Origin: Dialister succinatiphilus YIT 11850
Lineage (GTDB): Bacteria > Bacillota > Negativicutes > Veillonellales > Dialisteraceae
DNA length: 47,862 nt
Direction: 5' to 3'
Assembly: GCF_000242435.1 (NCBI RefSeq)
Contig: NZ_JH591188.1
Location: 64,845-112,706 of the forward strand
Shown here: positions 2,380 to 45,819 of the stretch, in pieces
Position numbering within the stretch: the stretch's first letter is position 1
How the letters are laid out: each line of letters begins with the position of its first letter
Notes under the pieces: generated by a model
Database searches by the model: none
Told to the model about the DNA's origin: nothing
What the model saw: the letters and a program-made list of their open reading frames with translations, nothing else
Position numbers and translations under genes: made by a program

Positions 2380-3376
2380 GTTTTGGGGGAGACCGTGGGA
2401 ATGCTGTCCGCTATCCTCTGCCCCCTGAGCGAAAGCGATACACAACCCACGGCGGAGCCGCCACCACCCTATGGACACGCCCTTATGGGCGTGAGGGTTC
2501 TAAAGTTTGACGGGGCTATCGCCCCGAGGGTTCTTAAGTTTGACAGCGGCCCTGCCGCTGAGGGTTGTAGTATGGCGCCTTATATTTATTGAAGGCGCCC
2601 TTTTATGATAAAACCTTTACAATCGGGCTTTCACCCGAGGGAAAACTATACAACCACCCTGCGGGCGTTGGAAATACATTCCCCCTTTGGTGGCTGGCGC
2701 CACCACCTTGCCCGATGGGAAGCGTGTCACTTGATTCTCAGTCGCCTACGGCTCCTTGCGAATCAAGTTCCCTTGCCACCCGGTGGGAAGCATGTCACTG
2801 GATTCGCGGGTCGCGGGGCTCCCCTATGAATCCAGTTCCTTTGCCACCCCCGCAGTTCGGTGGGGCGGCAAAAGGAAAGCGCCTTAATGGGCAGGCTAGG
2901 CGCCTTACTTCGCCCCACTTGGAGGTCCTATGCAGGACCTCCACAGTGGCACTATAACCCGTGCTTATGGTAGTGCGACTTATGAAGAGAGTGTTTCGCG
3001 GTGTTTTATTCTGCCCCCGCTTGCGGGGGAAGTCCGGCGCAGCCGGATAGGGGGTGTATCTGCCGAAGGCAGATAATTCAGCAGAATGGTTATTTTGCCA
3101 TATGATGCAGACAGGTTAATCCGTAACGCTGACTTTATACTCATCGCCCGTAAGGGCGATACCACAACCCTCGGCCCTATGGGCCGTCAAACTTACGAAC
3201 CCTCCGGCCGCAGGCCGGTCCATCTTAAGAACCTTTCCCTCTGAACCCTGAGCGAAGCGAACATAACCCGCTGCCGACAGGCGGCCACAACCCTCGGGGC
3301 GAAGCCCCGTCAACCTACCCCTCTGAACCCTTTGAACCTTTTGAACCCTCTGAACCCTCACACCACAGGTGTGTCC
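2380..3376. repeat. Composite palindromic repeat element of about 0.9 kb
   Basis: This stretch holds no gene. It is bounded by inverted terminal hairpins: ACACGCCC/GGGCGTG followed by AGGGTT at 2475-2499, and AACCCTC followed by a CACC/GGTGTG hairpin ending at 3376. Inside are three TTGAC-hairpin-GAGGGTT units (stems of GGGGC and AGCGGC type) and two copies of the covarying palindrome with outer arms ACTTGATTC/GAATCAAGT (2729-2737, 2760-2768) and ACTGGATTC/GAATCCAGT (2797-2805, 2828-2836). It also carries the GGAGGTCCT hairpin (2921-2942), the CCGGCgcaGCCGG hairpin and the GTAACGCTGACTTTATA core. Small open frames in it are translations of repeats. Confidence 0.85.
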
Positions 3377-3431: not shown

Positions 3432-4871
3432 ATGTTTATTCATGAAATCATCAACCAGGCGCCTTCAGACCATGTGGCCATTGAGGGCGATGAAAGGGTA
3501 ACCTACGGGGAACTGAGGAATCTGGTTTCCCTGTATCGGAATCAGCTGTATGAGATGGGCATCCGACGGGGCATGAAAGTGGGACTGTACTCTGCCAACC
3601 GGGCGGAGTTTATTTATGTGCATTTGGCGGTGATCAGCCTGGGGGCCGTGATTATCCCCATTAACAACTCCCTGGTGGACCGGGAGGTGGACTACATCCT
3701 GAAGGACGGGGAGGCATCGCTTCTGGTGACGGATACGAAACTTTCCGTTTCCATCCCCTCCGTGGATATCCATGACCTGGATTTCCAGGCCCGGCAGCGG
3801 AAGGCATCGGAGGCGCCGGCGTTTCCTTCAGACCTGACGGAGGATGAGGTGTGCGCCTTTGTGTATACCTCCGGCACCACCGGCAGCCCCAAGGGCGCCA
3901 TGCTGACCCATCGGAATCTGGTGCGCAATGTGGAGCAGTTTACCCAGATGGTGATTTTCAAGCCGGAGGATAAAATCCTCTGTGTGCTGCCTATGTTCCA
4001 CTGCTACGGTCTGACCACAGTCATTCACGCAGGCCTCATGCATGGAAGCACCATCGTTATCCTTCGCTCCAAGAATCCTTCGGAAATCATCAATGCCATT
4101 GTGGAGCACAGTGTCACCATGGCTATCATGGTGCCGCCCATGTACAACCTGCTGGCCCGCCGGGGTGAACCGTCGGTGATGCAGACAGTGCATGATTTCA
4201 TTTCCGGCGGCGCTCCCATTCCCCAGCCTGTGGCCCAGGCCTTTTACGACCGTTTCCACCATCCCGTGCGGGAAGGCTACGGCCTCACAGAGGCGTCGCC
4301 GGTGGTGAGCGTCCTGCCGTCGGATCGGCTGAAATATCTGACTGTAGGGCCCGCCATTCCCGGCGTGGAAGTGAAAATCGTGACAGACCGGGAAGGCCCC
4401 TATCAACCGGGCACCGTAGGCGAGCTTCTGGTGCGGGGTGACAATGTGATGAAGGGCTACTGGCATCGGGAAGAGGAAACGAAGAAGGTGCTGGAGCCGG
4501 ATGGCTGGCTCCATACGGGCGATCTGGCCTACATGGACGAAGACCGGTTCATTTACATTGTGGACCGGCTGAAGGACCTGATTATCGTGAATGGGGAAAA
4601 TATCTATCCCGGTGAAGTGGAAGACTGCATTTATGAAGTGGAAGGGGTTTCCGAATGCGCCGTCATCGGCCATCCTGACCCTCTCCGGGGACAGGTGGTA
4701 TGGGCCTATGTGGTGATGAAGGAAGGATACGATTTTGACGAAAACCGGATCCGGAAATACCTGTCCAGAAACCTGGCCAGCTACAAAATCCCCCGCCGCT
4801 TCATTCCCATGGACGCCCTCCCGAAAAATGCGTCAGGGAAAATCCTGAAACGGGCACTTCGCAACAAATAA
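3432..4871 (+). CDS. AMP-forming acyl-CoA synthetase/ligase
   Basis: This 479-residue adenylate-forming enzyme activates a carboxylic acid with ATP, then passes it to CoA or another thiol. Visible motifs are the P-loop YTSGTTGSPKGA (about 145-156), YGLTEASPV, the hinge aspartate region GWLHTGDLAYMD and the C-terminal catalytic lysine in LPKNASGKILK. The length is short for a long-chain fatty acid ligase (usually 500-560) and closer to compact medium-chain or aryl ligases. The start at 3432 follows GAGGTG and gives a normal N-terminus; an upstream ATG at 3369 lies in repeat and promoter sequence. The gene has its own promoter and a strong terminator. The substrate is not determinable here; a fatty acid or aromatic acid is the likeliest. 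Confidence 0.9.
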   Translation: MFIHEIINQAPSDHVAIEGDERVTYGELRNLVSLYRNQLYEMGIRRGMKVGLYSANRAEFIYVHLAVISLGAVIIPINNSLVDREVDYILKDGEASLLVTDTKLSVSIPSVDIHDLDFQARQRKASEAPAFPSDLTEDEVCAFVYTSGTTGSPKGAMLTHRNLVRNVEQFTQMVIFKPEDKILCVLPMFHCYGLTTVIHAGLMHGSTIVILRSKNPSEIINAIVEHSVTMAIMVPPMYNLLARRGEPSVMQTVHDFISGGAPIPQPVAQAFYDRFHHPVREGYGLTEASPVVSVLPSDRLKYLTVGPAIPGVEVKIVTDREGPYQPGTVGELLVRGDNVMKGYWHREEETKKVLEPDGWLHTGDLAYMDEDRFIYIVDRLKDLIIVNGENIYPGEVEDCIYEVEGVSECAVIGHPDPLRGQVVWAYVVMKEGYDFDENRIRKYLSRNLASYKIPRRFIPMDALPKNASGKILKRALRNK

Positions 4872-5544: not shown

Positions 5545-6496
5545 GGAACGGCTGTCTGCCTGCCGCTATCCGCTTACCGCCGGCGGAAAGACATGAGGCG
5601 GTCAGACGGCAGATATCAGATGGGCTGTATTCCCGAACGCAAAGGGGCTTGAGGGTTCAGGCGCCTGTGGCGCGGTCGGGATCGGGACCGGGGCGGTGCT
5701 TTCCAGTATTCCCGAAGGTTGACACGCCCTTACGGGCGTGAGGGTTGAGCCAGCCGCCGGGCCTTTCGGCCCTGGGCTGCCAGGGTTCTGTCCGGGACCG
5801 GCTGACGCCTTACAGGCGGGCTCCGGGCTCTCGCCCTCGGGAGTTATATAGTATCGCTGCGCTGGCGAGGTACGGCGCCTTCGGCGCCATTTTTTATACC
5901 GCCTTTGGCGGCGAAAACCATACAACCGCCCTGACGCCCTATGGGGCTTGAGGGTTGACGGCCCGCTGGGCCGAAGGTTCTTAAGGGGCTTAAGTTTGAC
6001 GCGCCTCTGACGCGAGGGGTGTTGTAGGGCGCCTCTAAATTATAGAAGGCGCCAGTTTGTATAAAACCATACAACCACCCTGCGGGCGTCGGAAAACAGG
6101 CCAGCCTCGCTTTGCTCGTGTAACGGCTTCCCCCCCCCTTGCCCGCTTCGCGGGACTTCCCCCGCAAGCGGTGGCAGAACAACCCGTGCTTATTGTAGTG
6201 CAACTTATGAAGGGATTGCTTTGCGAATCTTTATTGTCCCACCGCTCAGCGGGGGGAAGGTGGTGCCGTAAGGCACCAAAGGGGGGGAAAAGCCACTGTA
6301 GCTGGCTGATCATCGTAATGATTATTTTGCCATATGACACCGAAAGTAAATCCCGTAACGCTGACTTTATAAGCATTGCCCGCAGGGCAATCCACAACCC
6401 TCAGCGCCGCAGGCGCTGTCGCCCCCTGAGCGAAGCGAACACAACCTGCCGCCATTAGGCAGCCATAACCCTCGGGGCGAAGCCCCGTTTACCCTG
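5545..6496. repeat. Intergenic palindromic repeat cluster
   Basis: No gene is credible here. A stretch near 5555-5640 resembles stretches near 31229-31310 and 47640-47710 (CTATCCGCT, CAGACGGCAGA and ATTCCCGAA motifs). From about 5711 a block of about 95 bp (GACACGCCC hairpin, GGCGCC and GGGCC hairpins, ending near GGACCGGCTGA) recurs at 29513-29606 and 47769-47862. Further on come GGCGCCTTCGGCGCC, TTGAC-type hairpins, the GTAACGCTGACTTTATAAG core at about 6354-6373 and an empty ATTGCC-CGCAG-GGCAAT hairpin at about 6376-6392, then CCCTC-hairpin units up to the terminator hairpin at 6497. Confidence 0.82.
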
Positions 6497-7769: not shown

Positions 7770-8745
7770 ATGGCTGTCCGCTGTCGGCTTCCCTGGCGCC
7801 CTATGGGGTTTGAGGGTTCTAAAGTTTGACGGGGCTATCGCCCCGAGGGTTCTAAAGTTTGACAGCGGCTTTGCCGCTGAGGGTTGTGGTGGGCGCCTAT
7901 GAATTGATAGAAGGCGCCCTCTTATGATAAAACTTAACAACCGGGCTTTCGCCCGTGGGAAAATAGGCCAGCCTCGCTCCGCTCGAGGAAATGCATTCCC
8001 CCTTTGGTGCCTTACGGCACCACCTTGCCGGTGGGAAGCATGTCATATGATATAGAAAACTAATTCCGTAACGCTGACTTTATAAGCATTGCCCGCAGGG
8101 CAATCCGCAACCCTCGGGGCCAAAGGCCCCGTCAAACTTACGAATCCTCCGGCCAAGGGCCGGTCCATCTTAAGAACCCTTTTTCCACAACCCTTCTACA
8201 CAACCCGCCGCCGCAGGCGGCTATAACCTCCAGCCCCGCAGGGGCTGGCCACCTTCCCCTTGAACCCTCACACCGCAGGTGTGTCCAAAGGTAAGAAACA
8301 AAAATGACACAGGCTGCCGATTGGCGGTCAGGATAGCGATGGGGTGTCAAATCGGCGCTCTGCCTTGTACACCCTTTGCCTCTTCGAGGCGTTCCCCTCA
8401 AGGGGAAACGAGAAGTATGGAGAGGAAAAACAGAGAGTCATATATTTCATGTACCATTCCGCAGTTTCCCCCTTTGGTGGTGAACGCAGTGAGCCAATCA
8501 CCAGCATGCGTATCATGCCATATGACCTATAAAGCCAATTCCGTAACGCTGACTTTATAAGCATTGCCCCCTAAAGGGGAAACGACTCACTACATTTTGC
8601 GCGTCGCTAGCGCTCCTTCAAAATGTGTTCGCTGTGCACCGTAGGGCAATCCACAACCCTCGGGCCAACGGCCCGTCAAACTTACGAACCCTGAGAACCC
8701 TCGGGGCACAGCCCCGTCAATCCTCACACCGAAGGTGTGTCCCAT
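7770..8745. repeat. Palindromic repeat cluster with first copy of a 300-bp repeat
   Basis: This holds no gene. TTGAC-hairpin-GAGGGTT units (stems GGGGC and AGCGGC) open the cluster at about 7810-7885. An empty ATTGCC-CGCAG-GGCAAT hairpin is at about 8093-8109. From about 8267 to 8568 lies the first copy of a near-identical 300-bp repeat whose second copy is at about 10023-10320. The 71-bp hairpin module occupies 8569-8639 in this copy only. The cluster closes with CCCTC-hairpin units and an ACACC/GGTGT hairpin ending near 8743. Confidence 0.85.
8569..8639. repeat. 71-bp hairpin module, filled site
   Basis: The module opens with the CCCTAAAGGGG palindrome and ends in GTGCAC. Its main arms are ACATTTTG (8592-8599) and CAAAATGT (8619-8626). 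It sits exactly between ATTGCC and the loop of the ATTGCC/GGCAAT hairpin; the paralogous copy near 10315-10330 lacks it. Other copies of identical length are at 24155-24225, 24346-24416 and 30265-30335, with a 70-bp copy at 17275-17344. Confidence 0.9.
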
Positions 8746-9959: not shown

Positions 9960-10435
9960 CTTTTTTAAAATCTGCGGCGTCAGCCGCCACCACCCTTTGA
10001 ACCCTCTGAAACCTTTGAACCCTCACACCGCAGGTGTGTCCAAGGGTAAGAAACAAAAATGACACAGGCTGCCGATTGGCGGTCAGGATAGCGATGGGGT
10101 GTCAAATCGGCGCTCTGCCTTGTACACCCTTTGCCTCTTCGAGGCGTTCCCCTCAAGGGGAAACGAGAAGTATGGAGAGGAAAAACAGGGAGTCATATAT
10201 TTCATGTACCATTCCGCAATTTCCCCTTTGGTGGTGAACGCAGAGAGCCAATCACCAGAATGCCTATCATGCCATATGATACAAAAGTCAGATCCGTAAC
10301 GCTGACTTTATAAGCATTGCCCGTAGGGCAATCCACAACCCTCGGGCCAACGGCCCGTCAAACTTACGAACCCTGAGAACCCTCGGGACGAAGTCCCGTC
10401 AACCCTCACACCCGACAGGGCGTGTTATAAAAATA
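9960..10435. repeat. Repeat cluster with second copy of the 300-bp repeat
   Basis: No gene is present. Bases from about 10023 to 10320 repeat 8267-8568 with only scattered differences. After the conserved GTAACGCTGACTTTATAAG core the ATTGCC-CGTAG-GGCAAT hairpin is empty, whereas the first copy carries the 71-bp module there. The shared sequence then continues through GGGCC/GGCCC and GGGAC/GTCCC hairpins in the CCCTC...GTCAA frame. The cluster sits inside what would otherwise be one transporter operon. Confidence 0.87.
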
Positions 10436-17029: not shown

Positions 17030-17440
17030 CTATAAATTGCGGCGAAGCCGCCACCACCACCCTCGGCCCAAAGGGCCGTCAAACCTAAGAACCTTTTCCC
17101 GAATCTTCCCGCCGACTGGTATTTACTACCGTTTGTCTCATGCCTGTCATGCACCGAGATTCTTCGCTGGCGCTTAGAATGACTGTGAGGGCGGGAAGAC
17201 AATTCCGTAGCGCTGCTGCCGAGAGGCGGCTATATACTCATCGACGCCAAAGGCGTCGATACCACAATCCTCGCCCCTAAAGGGGAAACGACTCACTATG
17301 ATTTGTGCGTCGCTTTGCTCCTTCAAATCATGTTCGCTGTGCACGCCAACGGCGCTGTCAAACTTAAGAACCCTCCGGCCGCAGGCCGGTCAATCCTAAG
17401 AACCTTTTTACACAACCTTTTTACACAACCTGCGGCGAAG
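17030..17440. repeat. Palindromic repeat cluster with 70-bp module
   Basis: No gene is credible. The stretch has GGCCC/GGGCC units, a fragment near 17140-17190 (CACCGAGATTCTTCGCTGG and GAATGAC) reminiscent of the module at 41.3 kb, and a GACGCC/GGCGTC hairpin near 17240. A copy of the hairpin module lies at 17275-17344 with arms ATGATTTG (17298-17305) and CAAATCAT (17324-17331). Here the module sits in a CCTCG...CGCTGTC hairpin rather than in ATTGCC/GGCAAT. A CCGGCC/GGCCGG unit follows. Confidence 0.82.
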
Positions 17441-24154: not shown

Positions 24155-24225
24155 CCCTAAAGGGGAAACGACTCACTATATTTTGCGCGTCGCTAGCGCT
24201 CCTTCAAAATGTGTTCGCTGTGCAC
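24155..24225. repeat. 71-bp hairpin module, copy in ATTGCC/GGCAAT loop
   Basis: Same length, ends (CCCTAAAGGGG to GTGCAC) and insertion point as the copy at 8569-8639. The left arm here reads TATTTTG against CAAAATG, so one outer pair is lost. Confidence 0.88.
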
Positions 24226-24345: not shown

Positions 24346-24416
24346 CCCTAAAGGGGAAACGACTCACTACATTTTGCGCGTCGCTAGCGCTCCTTCAAAA
24401 TGTGTTCGCTGCGCAC
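24346..24416. repeat. 71-bp hairpin module, second nearby copy
   Basis: Same ends and insertion point as the copy 120 bp upstream, with intact arms ACATTTTG/CAAAATGT. The end reads GCGCAC rather than GTGCAC. Confidence 0.88.
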
Positions 24417-29446: not shown

Positions 29447-30443
29447 TACAAAGGCGCTGACGAGGCAGCGAAAACTATGGGTTTTGTGAAGAATCGGCGG
29501 GAAGCTGTAATCCCGAAGGTTGACACGCCCTTACGGGCGTGAGGGTTGATGGCGCCGCCGGGCCTTTGGCCCTGGGCGCCAAGGGTTCTGTCCGGGACCG
29601 GCTGACGCCTCCCGGACGGGCTCCGGGCTCTCGCCCTCGGGAGGTATGAAGTACTGTGGAGGTCCTGCATAGGACCTCCAAGTCGGCCAAAGTAGGCCCT
29701 TAGCCTGCCCATTAAAGGGCTTACCTATTGGTTGGCTGACCGTGCCCGCTGGGGAGGTACGGCGCCTTCGGCGCCATCATATATATGCCTATACCGCCTG
29801 CGGCAGGGGGACAATAAAGCTTCGTGACGCTATCTTTTGATAAGTGACTCTACTTTAAGCACAGGTTGTTCTGCCCCTTGAATAGGGGTGGCAAGGGAAC
29901 ACGATTCGTAAGGAAGCGAAGCGACCTGAGAATCGTGTGACACGCTTTCCCGTGGATGCACAGCGAACATGATTTGAAGGAGCGCCAGCGACGCACAAAT
30001 CATAGTGAGTCGTTTCACCTTTAGGTGGAAAGTCCGGCGAAGCCGGATAGGGGGAGGCGAGCGCAGCGAGCCAATTACCAGAATGCTTATCATACCATAT
30101 GATACAAAAAGCCAATCCCGTAACGCTGACTTCATACTCATCGCCCAAAGGGCGATACCACAACCCTCGGCCCGAAGGGCCGTCAAACTTACGAACCCTC
30201 CGGCCCATAGGGCCGGTCCATCTTAAGAACCCTCCCTCATAACGCTGACTTTATACTCATCGCCCCCTAAAGGGGAAACGACTCACTACTTTTTGCGCGT
30301 CGCTAGCGCTCCTTCAAAATGTGTTCGCTGTGCACCGAAGGGCGATACCACAACCCTCGGCCTGAAAGGCCGTCAAACTTACGAACCTTAAGAACCTTCG
30401 GGGCGAAGCCCCGTCAACCCTCACGCCCGAAAGGGCGTGTCCC
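29447..30443. repeat. Composite palindromic repeat cluster, about 1 kb
   Basis: No gene is supported. The left part (29513-29606) repeats the block at 5711-5810 and 47769-47862. Terminal inverted hairpins GACACGCCC/GGGCGTGAGGGTT (29521 on) and AACCCTCACGCCC/GGGCGTGTC (to about 30441) bound a unit of about 0.92 kb. Inside are the GGAGGTCCT hairpin in inverted orientation (29658-29679), the covarying palindrome with arms ACACGATTC (29899-29907) and GAATCGTGT (29930-29938), and an inverted copy of the 71-bp module with arms ATGATTTG/CAAATCAT (29969-29976, 29996-30003). A forward 71-bp copy lies at 30265-30335. Confidence 0.85.
30265..30335. repeat. 71-bp hairpin module in a CATCGCC/GGCGAT hairpin
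   Basis: Same ends and length as the other 71-bp copies. The host hairpin here is ATCGCC/GGCGAT instead of ATTGCC/GGCAAT; empty versions of this host are at about 3141-3157 and 30139-30155. The left arm reads CTTTTTG against CAAAATG, a degraded pairing. Confidence 0.87.
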
Positions 30444-31228: not shown

Positions 31229-31530
31229 CCGTTGTCAGCTATCCGCTGACCGCCGGAAAATATCAGATAGTCAGACGGCAGACATGAGACAGGTAGCATT
31301 CCCGAAAGGGAAGGGGCCGCCGCGGGCGCGGGTATAAAGGCTTTCCACTATTCCGCGAAGCGGAATGATAAGACTCATCGCTCCCTAAAGGGGAAACGAC
31401 TCACTACATTCTGCGCGTCGCTGGCGCTCCTTCATCCTCTGCTGTCACTGACTCACTGGATTCGCGGGTCGCTTCTCTCCCCTATGAATCCAGTTCCCTT
31501 GCCACCTCAAGGGGAAACGAGAAAATTAGA
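31229..31530. repeat. Mosaic of truncated palindromic modules
   Basis: No gene is present. The first part (CTATCCGCTGACCGCCGG, GTCAGACGGCAGAC, ATTCCCGAA) resembles 5555-5640 and 47640-47710. At about 31384 a 71-bp-type module begins (CCCTAAAGGGG, then ACATTCTG) but its right arm is missing. Instead the sequence switches to the other palindrome with arms ACTGGATTC (31455-31463) and GAATCCAGT (31486-31494), and then to a second AAGGGGAAACGA. Confidence 0.75.
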
Positions 31531-31608: not shown

Positions 31609-31620
31609 AAAACCCGCAAA

Positions 31621-31676
31621 CGGCGATGGAGTTCGCCGGGCGTAGGCCGAATGCTCTTTGAGCTGATGACTCCTGT
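31621..31676 (+). ncRNA. Fluoride riboswitch (crcB motif)
   Basis: The sequence GGCGATGGAGTTCGCC near 31622-31637, an internal GCTC/GAGC hairpin and the 3' segment GCTGATGACTCCT (31662-31674) match the conserved crcB RNA. This aptamer binds fluoride ion with Mg2+ and turns on fluoride export. The 3' end of the aptamer (CTCCTG) is also the 5' arm of the terminator that follows, so ligand binding would prevent termination. The crcB gene immediately downstream supports the call strongly. Confidence 0.95.
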
Positions 31677-31735
31677 CCCCCTGGAATCGGGTTCTTCTGC
31701 GAATCCATTTCCTTCAGGGGGCAGGAGATTTTTTT
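31670..31735 (+). terminator. Riboswitch expression platform (terminator)
   Basis: CTCCTG-CCCCCTGGAA (from 31670) pairs with TTC-AGGGGGCAGGAG (ending about 31728), followed by ATTTTTTT. The 5' arm overlaps the aptamer's last strand, giving a mutually exclusive switch. Confidence 0.85.
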
Positions 31736-35956: not shown

Positions 35957-36370
35957 TGAAAAAGAAAGAGTTGAGAGTTGAGAGTTGAGGTCCGGCGGCT
36001 TCGCCGCAGAAGTTAACCCTCCCTTGCTCGCAAGGGAGGGGGGACCGCGTCAGCGGTGCGCAGCGAACTGCATTCGTAAGGAGCCGCAGGCGACTGAGAA
36101 TGCAGTGAGTCGCTTTCCCTTCGGGTGGGTGGGTTGCCGCGCAGAGGCAGGATCTGCGAAGCAGGGGATTCGTACAAATCCCATCAATCCATCCTGCGGC
36201 TTTGCCGCGGCCCCTCTCCAAGGGCCTGCATGGGTACGGATTGTCTCACATGGAACGTTAGCCCTTCTATCGAGGCAACCGTTAAAAGCGCGCCCCCTTA
36301 GAGAAGGGGGCAGCCCAAAGGGCGGGGGATGGATCCGCCTCGAAGAGGCGGTACCTGCGAAGCAGGGGAA
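35957..36370. repeat. Second-type repeat cluster with covarying palindrome
   Basis: No gene. TTGAGAG heptamers (35970-35990) and the CCTCCCTTGC hairpin open the cluster. The covarying palindrome follows with arms ACTGCATTC (36067-36075) and GAATGCAGT (36098-36106). Then come ATCCATCC near 36189, GGCCCCTCTCCAAGGGCCT, and an element beginning CCCCCTTAGAGAAGGGGG (about 36291) with GGATGGATCC and CCTCgaaGAGG hairpins up to the DUF559 gene. Confidence 0.8.
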
Positions 36371-40342: not shown

Positions 40343-40452
40343 ACTGGAGTTACAGCAGCGAACACAATTTGAAGGAGCGCCAGCGACGCACAAATTGTCG
40401 TGAGTCGCTGATAGCCGTGCTGTAGGGAGCCGAAGGCGAGCGAAAATCCAGT
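40343..40452. repeat. Nested palindrome, copy 1
   Basis: The outer arms are ACTGGAGT (40343-40350) and AATCCAGT (40445-40452), pairing at all but one position. The middle arms are TACAGCA (40351-40357) and TGCTGTA (40418-40424). The inner module, from AGCGAACAC to GTGAGTCGCT, has arms ACAATTTG (40364-40371) and CAAATTGT (40391-40398). The same inner module exists alone at 29.96 and 45.68 kb with other stems. Confidence 0.88.
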
Positions 40453-40506: not shown

Positions 40507-40615
40507 ACTGCAGTCACAGCAGCGAACACAATTTGGAGGAGCGAAGCAACGCTCAAATTGTTGTGAGTCGCTGATAGCCGTGCTGTAAGGAGCCGCAGGC
40601 GACTGAGAATGCAGT
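40507..40615. repeat. Nested palindrome, copy 2
   Basis: The design matches copy 1, with outer arms ACTGCAGT (40507-40514) and AATGCAGT (40608-40615) and inner arms ACAATTTG (40528-40535) and CAAATTGT (40554-40561). Compared with copy 1 the outer stem has changed GG to GC on the left and CC to GC on the right, keeping the pairing. Confidence 0.88.
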
Positions 40616-45464: not shown

Positions 45465-45819
45465 AAAGAAAGAGTTGAGATTTGAGAGTTGAGATTTGAG
45501 AGTTGAGAGTTGAGTTCCCGCGGCTTCGCCGCAGAAGGCACCCAACCTCCCCTCTTTAGAGGGGAGGGGGACCGCTTGCGGTGGAGGGGTGCCGGTGTAA
45601 AAAGAAAGAATTGAGATTTGAGTGAAGAAAATTAAGGTCCAGACTACGCCGTTAAAACTTGGCTCCCCCATCGGGGTGGCAGCGAACACGATTTGAAGGA
45701 GCGAAGCAACGCACAAATCGTAGTGAGTCGCTTTCCCGTAGGGTGAGCTGCCGAAGGCTGAGGGGGTGCATTTGCCGCGAAGCGGCTGAGATGGAAGGCG
45801 TTGAAAAGCCCTGTGTTCC
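45465..45819. repeat. Second-type repeat cluster left of the IS element
   Basis: No gene. TTGAGAT/TTGAGAG words in tandem (45474-45514), CCTCCCCTCTTTAGAGGGGAGG (about 45546-45567) and the hairpin module with arms ACGATTTG (45688-45695) and CAAATCGT (45714-45721) precede the left half of the module that elsewhere runs uninterrupted (41287 on). The IS element breaks it after TGTGTTCC (45812-45819). Confidence 0.82.

Follow-up and report, generated by a model that had tools for sequence, protein, structure and literature searches.

ERIC, RUP, Correia/NEMIS and the Rickettsia palindromic elements are interspersed palindromic repeats of ~100 bp with no gene of their own, and NEMIS exists in 107 and 155 bp forms that differ by an internal segment (PMC2229807). 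Several of these repeats are described as having terminal inverted repeats, or TA as their target signal (PMC2229807). REP/BIME sequences and REPINs are high-copy intergenic palindromes, and palindromic repeats serve as insertion targets (PMC3116915, PMC1525189). BOX of Streptococcus pneumoniae is an A-B-C composite, with the inner boxB in variable tandem number (PMC3049150). Fungal mitochondria contain double-hairpin elements and GC clusters, and sponge mitochondria contain repetitive hairpin-forming elements; all are intergenic, and consist of two adjacent hairpins or one palindrome of tens of bases (PMC4478555, PMC2800124). Copies of the Allomyces double hairpin lack flanking duplications, and GC clusters merge together and differ between strains (PMC4478555, PMC2800124).

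Here, we describe a 71 bp module found in a 47,862 nucleotide stretch of Dialister succinatiphilus DNA (the window). Unlike in several of the ~100 bp repeats, neither a TA target signal nor terminal inverted repeats are seen in it. Compared with RAYT-linked REPs it is longer and has two hairpins, and no Y1 transposase was found in the genome. Like BOX, the module has a variable interior, with 0 to about 5 inner units of 73 bp. However, whereas the BOX inner unit folds separately from A and C, that of the module interrupts the outer hairpin. This unit is itself related to the outer element, and a third hairpin encloses the whole. The mitochondrial elements are organellar, and yeast GC clusters have AG or ACT duplications where the module has none. 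The stems of the module covary and its loops are conserved, which is the reverse of the sponge elements. Two adjacent hairpins with compensatory changes occur in both the module and the fungal double-hairpin elements; this is a likeness of form, and no ground for claiming homology. In the literature that we searched, no known system combines recursive insertion of hairpins into hairpins with a relative in stable RNA spacers. A search for Dialister repeats or Negativicutes spacer hairpins returned nothing relevant. We favour the view that the module is probably a non-autonomous, structure-conserved mobile repeat of the double-hairpin type, belonging to a spacer family and inserted on the 5' side of palindromes.

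Copies and structure of the module

All five module copies of the original prediction were recovered, four of 71 bp and one of 70 bp. The last does lie in a different hairpin, within the 5' arm of GCGCC-AAC-GGCGC. The core motif matched the window 8 times, and did not match any of 100 shuffled versions, which excludes chance. The copies and family members are listed below, together with the two hairpins of the first copy. Class a is the commonest class of host hairpin.

8569 to 8639, + strand: 71 bp module (double hairpin), inside a class a host hairpin
8568 to 8579, + strand: first (mini) hairpin, CCCC-TAAA-GGGG; arms covary in relatives (CACC..GGTG)
8592 to 8626, + strand: second hairpin, ACATTTTG / CAAAATGT, with conserved loop GCGTCGCT..GCTCC; arms covary
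17275 to 17344, + strand: 70 bp module with alternative stem TATGATTTG/CAAATCATG, in the 5' arm of the unlike hairpin GCGCC-AAC-GGCGC
24155 to 24225, + strand: 71 bp module, class a host
24346 to 24416, + strand: 71 bp module, class a host
29954 to 30032, − strand: module of the CACCTAAAGGTG subfamily, class e host
30265 to 30335, + strand: 71 bp module, class a host (ATCGCC/GGGCGAT)
31377 to 31448, + strand: module, hairpin interrupted by a relative of the 73 bp type
36054 to 36132, − strand: diverged family member, weak (37 bits)
40349 to 40427, − strand: diverged family member
40513 to 40590, − strand: diverged family member
45673 to 45749, − strand: diverged family member

The window also contains a fluoride riboswitch (Rfam RF01734) at positions 31613-31682.

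The module starts with the mini-hairpin CCCC-TAAA-GGGG. This is followed by AAACGACTCACT, the stem ACATTTTG/CAAAATGT around GCGTCGCT..GCTCCTT, and the end GTTCGCTGTGCA. The original description of a small palindromic element was right in that the module is small and structured, but it has two hairpins and is not one simple palindrome. No inverted repeat is formed by its two ends, CCCCTAAAGGGG and GTGCA. Other copies carry alternative stems with the loops unchanged: TATGATTTG/CAAATCATG, CTGGATTC/GAATCCAG, CACGATTC/GAATCGTG, CTTGGTTC/GAACCAAG, CGAAATTT/AAATTTCG and others. We aligned units chosen without requiring pairing. In the first alignment (A2) 94.6% of cells were paired, 6 of 13 pairs had two-sided changes, and covariation was 0.315 compared to 0.141 after shuffling. 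The equivalent values for the second (A3) were 98.6%, 5 of 8 pairs, and 0.379 compared to 0.119. Hence, the structure is conserved. Single-strand DNA folding of the filled host gave a z of only −1.7, so folding energy alone is not evidence.

Genome-wide, there are about 75 module copies and 79 cores in D. succinatiphilus; 73 module 5' ends were found, against 0 for a reversed control. We counted 34 cores in the sister species, Dialister sp. UBA1703, and 1 or 0 in each of ten other genomes of the family that were searched. Matches in a public scan with the core motif were mostly to UBA1703. The host repeat behaved similarly, with 118 in UBA1703 (G006), 1 in another relative (G003) and 0 in three further members of the genus. 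A 119 bp piece of Dialister-like DNA, 92% identical, is present in the betaproteobacterium Mesosutterella porci (L117, about 3791-3909). It comprises a host and half a module beside the start of an ArsR-like gene, and was probably acquired by horizontal transfer.

Filled and empty host hairpins

The first copy in the window interrupts a hairpin that occurs elsewhere without it. The arms of this host, and the empty class a hosts, are as follows.

8563 to 8568, + strand: 5' arm of the host hairpin, ATTGCC, with one C in common with the module
8644 to 8650, + strand: 3' arm of the host hairpin, GGGCAAT
3121 to 3160, + strand: empty class a host
6353 to 6391, + strand: empty class a host
8066 to 8104, + strand: empty class a host
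10294 to 10332, + strand: empty class a host, within the near-identical repeat 10023-10420
30118 to 30156, + strand: empty class a host

The repeats at 8267-8740 and 10023-10420 had been described as differing by one clean event. The 71 bp difference is indeed single and clean, but small indels and substitutions are also present: 375 of 398 ungapped columns are identical, and the gap runs in 10023-10420 are 71, 2, 1, 1 and 1. As proposed, the four 71 bp copies share one insertion point. The empty hosts predicted near 3141, 6376, 8093 and 30139 proved to be the class a hosts that start at ~3121, 6353, 8066 and 30118. C runs leave up to two bases of ambiguity in the junction, which slides so that the true point is ATYGC^CCG, ATYGCC^CG or ATYGCCC^G.

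Flanks of every filled site were then queried with the insert removed. Empty counterparts were found for class a (ATYGCC^CGNAGGGCRAT), class a' (ATTG^CCGCAGAGCGGCAAT), class b (CG^CGCCAAAGGCGCG), class c, class d (GTTGTGT^TCGCTTCGCTC) and class e (CTTTC^TCCACGGGAAAG). Single hosts likewise have empty counterparts. The module occupies several unrelated host contexts, and the sequence after the insert starts CCG, CG, TCG or TCC. Comparison of filled and empty sites for several host classes revealed no target duplication, in agreement with the original prediction.

The module is itself interrupted. Tandem units of a 73 bp relative (TCCACTGCTGTCACTGACTCACTGGATTTTCAGG..GTGCA) lie within the module's hairpin, on its loop side, creating nested filled and empty alleles. 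Modules are 70/71, 143/144, 216/217, 288, 335 or 436 bp long, and have 0, 1, 2, 3 or about 5 units of 73 bp. Because the relatives are in tandem within the hairpin, the lengths fit 71 + n × 73. At one locus (L025, about 1501) the module start is fused to the 73 bp relative at their common GACTCACT; this chimera is likely a recombination product.

The original prediction had suggested that related strains be examined for filled and empty orthologous sites. Between the two Dialister species such sites are polymorphic. One D. succinatiphilus site (L040) is filled with the module and several 73 bp units, in an array partly masked as N. The UBA1703 site (L189) is empty and reads ATCATCGCC^CGCAGGGCGAT, with unique flanks conserved on both sides. 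At a second site the module is present in both species (L009 and L159), and two 73 bp units (146 bp) are found only in D. succinatiphilus (L009). These two presence/absence events are the clean ones from a comparison of two species, and the direction of each, gain or loss, is inferred. Orthologous intergenic sites also differ between the two species by whole repeat blocks of several hundred bases, present in one and missing in the other (L017 compared to L197; L075 compared to L188).

We next consider whether hairpin loops are the target, as first proposed. Global RNA folding of the flanks was discarded as a test, since 85% of random intergenic positions were also 'enclosed', and a strict local hairpin test was substituted. 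By this test, 29 of 49 distinct filled sites (59%) were inside a hairpin of at least 5 bp, most of the 49 being repeated host classes and so not independent. The corresponding values were 27% for random intergenic positions and 43% for motif-matched positions. Hence, the preference for hairpins over motif-matched intergenic sites (59% compared to 43%) is only moderate. Targeting of loops as such was not supported: none of the 49 junctions was clearly in a loop. Among the 29 in-hairpin junctions, 27 were in the 5' arm and 2 at the boundary between 5' arm and loop, with none in the loop or 3' arm; controls occupied all parts. For class a, the C run permits a junction exactly at the arm/loop boundary. 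The other 20 sites were not within such a hairpin, and several adjoin the 5' base of one. The preference of the module is for the 5' side of palindromic repeats. This is partly because the intergenic DNA of the Dialister genome is full of palindromic repeats.

Of 43 class a hosts scored in the initial 400 kb of contig C2, 32 were empty, 10 filled and 1 other. The corresponding counts for the parts of UBA1703 that were covered were 55, 4 and 3. A tree built from host flanks, weak because the flanks are short, required 17 changes for 18 filled hosts, compared to 16.3 ± 1.2 with shuffled labels. Filled hosts thus appear scattered over this weak tree as if at random. Filled hosts are therefore unlikely to have been duplicated as units; the pattern fits either insertion in place or conversion.

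Gene conversion alone is a rival explanation. A few insertions, one per host class, would have been followed by short-homology recombination among paralogous repeats, which spread the module to empty hosts of that class; continuing transposition would be unnecessary. The identical point and orientation of the copies, and the lack of target duplication, are as expected. Module subfamilies also track host class, with CACCTAAAGGTG only in class e and TCCCCA(C/G)AGGGG in class d. The L025 chimera shows that recombination occurs, and the tandem 73 bp arrays fit slippage or unequal exchange. However, roughly eight insertions into unrelated flanks would still be required. The filled state is also unlinked to host-flank similarity, although complete conversion would scatter filled hosts too. 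We consider conversion on its own possible, but tentatively disfavour it. Our preferred reading is that the module probably spread by insertion and gene conversion together, conversion aiding spread among copies within one host class.

A wider family in stable RNA spacers and the polarity of host repeats

A covariance model (R1) built from the module core found 1 to 13 copies in many other Veillonellales, between 23S and 5S rRNA and after 5S. In a survey of Negativicutes, 26 of 120 genomes and 14 of 65 genera had matches. Sampled copies from across the class were just after 16S, between 23S and 5S, or between tRNA genes in arrays, and in either orientation relative to rRNA. For 5 of 20 sampled loci no stable RNA gene was seen nearby. 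In four Negativicutes tRNA arrays (L268, L277, L272 and L280) the hairpin is between tRNA genes, in some cases exactly at a tRNA end. Copies from other genera share TAAGCGAYTCAC..GCGTCGCT..GCTCC..TTCNCTGCTTA and have two-sided changes in 11 of 13 stem pairs, in alignments that were fitted to the model and so are biased towards its stem. The module matches R1 in both the covarying stem and the GTCGCT..GCTCC loop. In D. succinatiphilus, where 5S and 23S ends were examined, the module was not near the three 5S genes found. The module thus forms a branch within a family of covarying double hairpins that is spread across Negativicutes. Outside Dialister, the spacers of rRNA and tRNA operons are the main location of this family; within Dialister, its copies are dispersed. 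The family is apparently undescribed. Neither the module nor an rRNA spacer copy matched any of 4227 Rfam covariance models, even at E = 1. The module is thus absent from the libraries searched, in line with the initial failure to recognise a described class.

The host repeats are strongly polarised. The host motif has a strand ratio of 44:1 over 400 kb of C2. Long intergenic repeats of the window and of C2, for example the motif CCGTAACGCTGACTT, are almost perfectly co-oriented with replication and independent of gene strand; besides the hosts, other repeats in the same 400 kb gave ratios of 25:0, 0:23 and 0:13. Conversely, short connector hairpins are not co-oriented with replication. The connector motif AACTTAAGAACCCT is 66:38, matching the gene strand ratio of 191:119 (C2, 400 kb). 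On C1, the host strand switches together with the direction of the rRNA operons, which is + at 166 kb and − at 1102 kb (and + at 330 kb on C2). The host strand is therefore interpreted as the leading one. This is in agreement with GC skew on C2, and only in rough agreement with it on C1. Hosts are independent of flanking gene orientation: the counts for each context (++ 18, −+ 11, −− 8, +− 7) are near those of intergenic bases. Since orientation is not gene-linked, the copies were rejected as transcription signals.

A broader role as a selected RNA or DNA signal (terminator, mRNA stabiliser or processing site), with presence/absence reflecting loss, would explain the strong covariation and the conserved loop motifs. 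It also suits the position of copies in relatives, which directly adjoin 16S, 23S and tRNA genes at the 3' end. It fits poorly with hosts that are indifferent to gene orientation yet follow replication 44:1, and with relatives' copies in both orientations relative to rRNA. Exact loss without flanking direct repeats is also hard to account for. Hence, we regard selection for such a signal as unlikely.

Candidate enzymes and mode of spread

We searched for proteins that could mobilise the module. The REP-associated Y1 transposase (PF01797) gave no match in D. succinatiphilus or UBA1703. PF01797 was found in another genome (G007), in which the pattern search gave no match to the module core. Among insertion sequences, the search of the D. 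succinatiphilus genome covered the IS110 and Y1 families. Reverse transcriptase and IS110 are present in D. succinatiphilus but were not found in UBA1703, a MAG that is 94% complete. Thus Y1/RAYT, RVT and IS110 were each rejected, none being common to both module-rich genomes.

REP palindromes are known targets of IS110, IS3 and other families (PMC1525189), and the IS110 elements of D. succinatiphilus could be taken to make the module an ordinary MITE of a resident, palindrome-targeting insertion sequence. Neither terminal inverted repeats nor a target duplication are seen for the module. Moreover, no IS110 was found in UBA1703, and G003, a relative nearly free of modules, has abundant IS110. 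This origin is most improbable.

D. succinatiphilus also has three near-identical group II introns (Rfam group-II-D1D4-3; L209, L210 and L211, about 751-2650 in L210). All three are directly 3' of hairpins in the same intergenic repeats; from the insertion site, we read them as group IIC. Group IIC introns resemble the module in hairpin-adjacent insertion, and no match was found between the module and intron domains. Could the intron reverse transcriptase copy a spacer-hairpin RNA into hairpin targets, in the manner of a SINE? Family members in rRNA and tRNA spacers across the class, and full-length copies with no target duplication, would suit such a route. Yet UBA1703, in which no reverse transcriptase was found, has 34 copies. 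The 5S-proximal spacers of D. succinatiphilus have no copy, and module junctions are 5' of hairpins while those of the introns are 3'. Very little probability attaches to this route.

Returning to our preferred reading, of a mobile double-hairpin repeat, the following course may be envisaged. The family, which in other Negativicutes occurs mainly in rRNA and tRNA operon spacers, would have been dispersed through the intergenic DNA of two Dialister species. The module would enter the 5' side of pre-existing palindromic repeats, usually within the 5' arm or at the arm/loop boundary. The module's hairpin would then have received a 73 bp relative, which multiplied in tandem. The polarity of the hosts and the position of junctions in hairpins suggest that, at the replication fork, folding of a single strand may have guided the first insertions. 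These may have been catalysed in trans by an enzyme. A bolder version makes the module a bacterial counterpart of SINEs. From a class-wide family of spacer hairpins, native to rRNA and tRNA operons, a mobile element would have arisen in Dialister that recognises single strands folded at the fork, with structure-guided, recursive insertion into the arms of other hairpins, its own kind included; this we hold to be doubtful.

For this very small bacterial element, filled and empty alleles are available at both orthologous and paralogous sites. The spread of palindromic repeats that lack an enzyme, long an open question, thus becomes directly testable. In addition, dispersed repeats are tied to a conserved and apparently undescribed family of stable RNA spacer hairpins, and the polarity of the intergenic DNA is seen to follow replication, not transcription.
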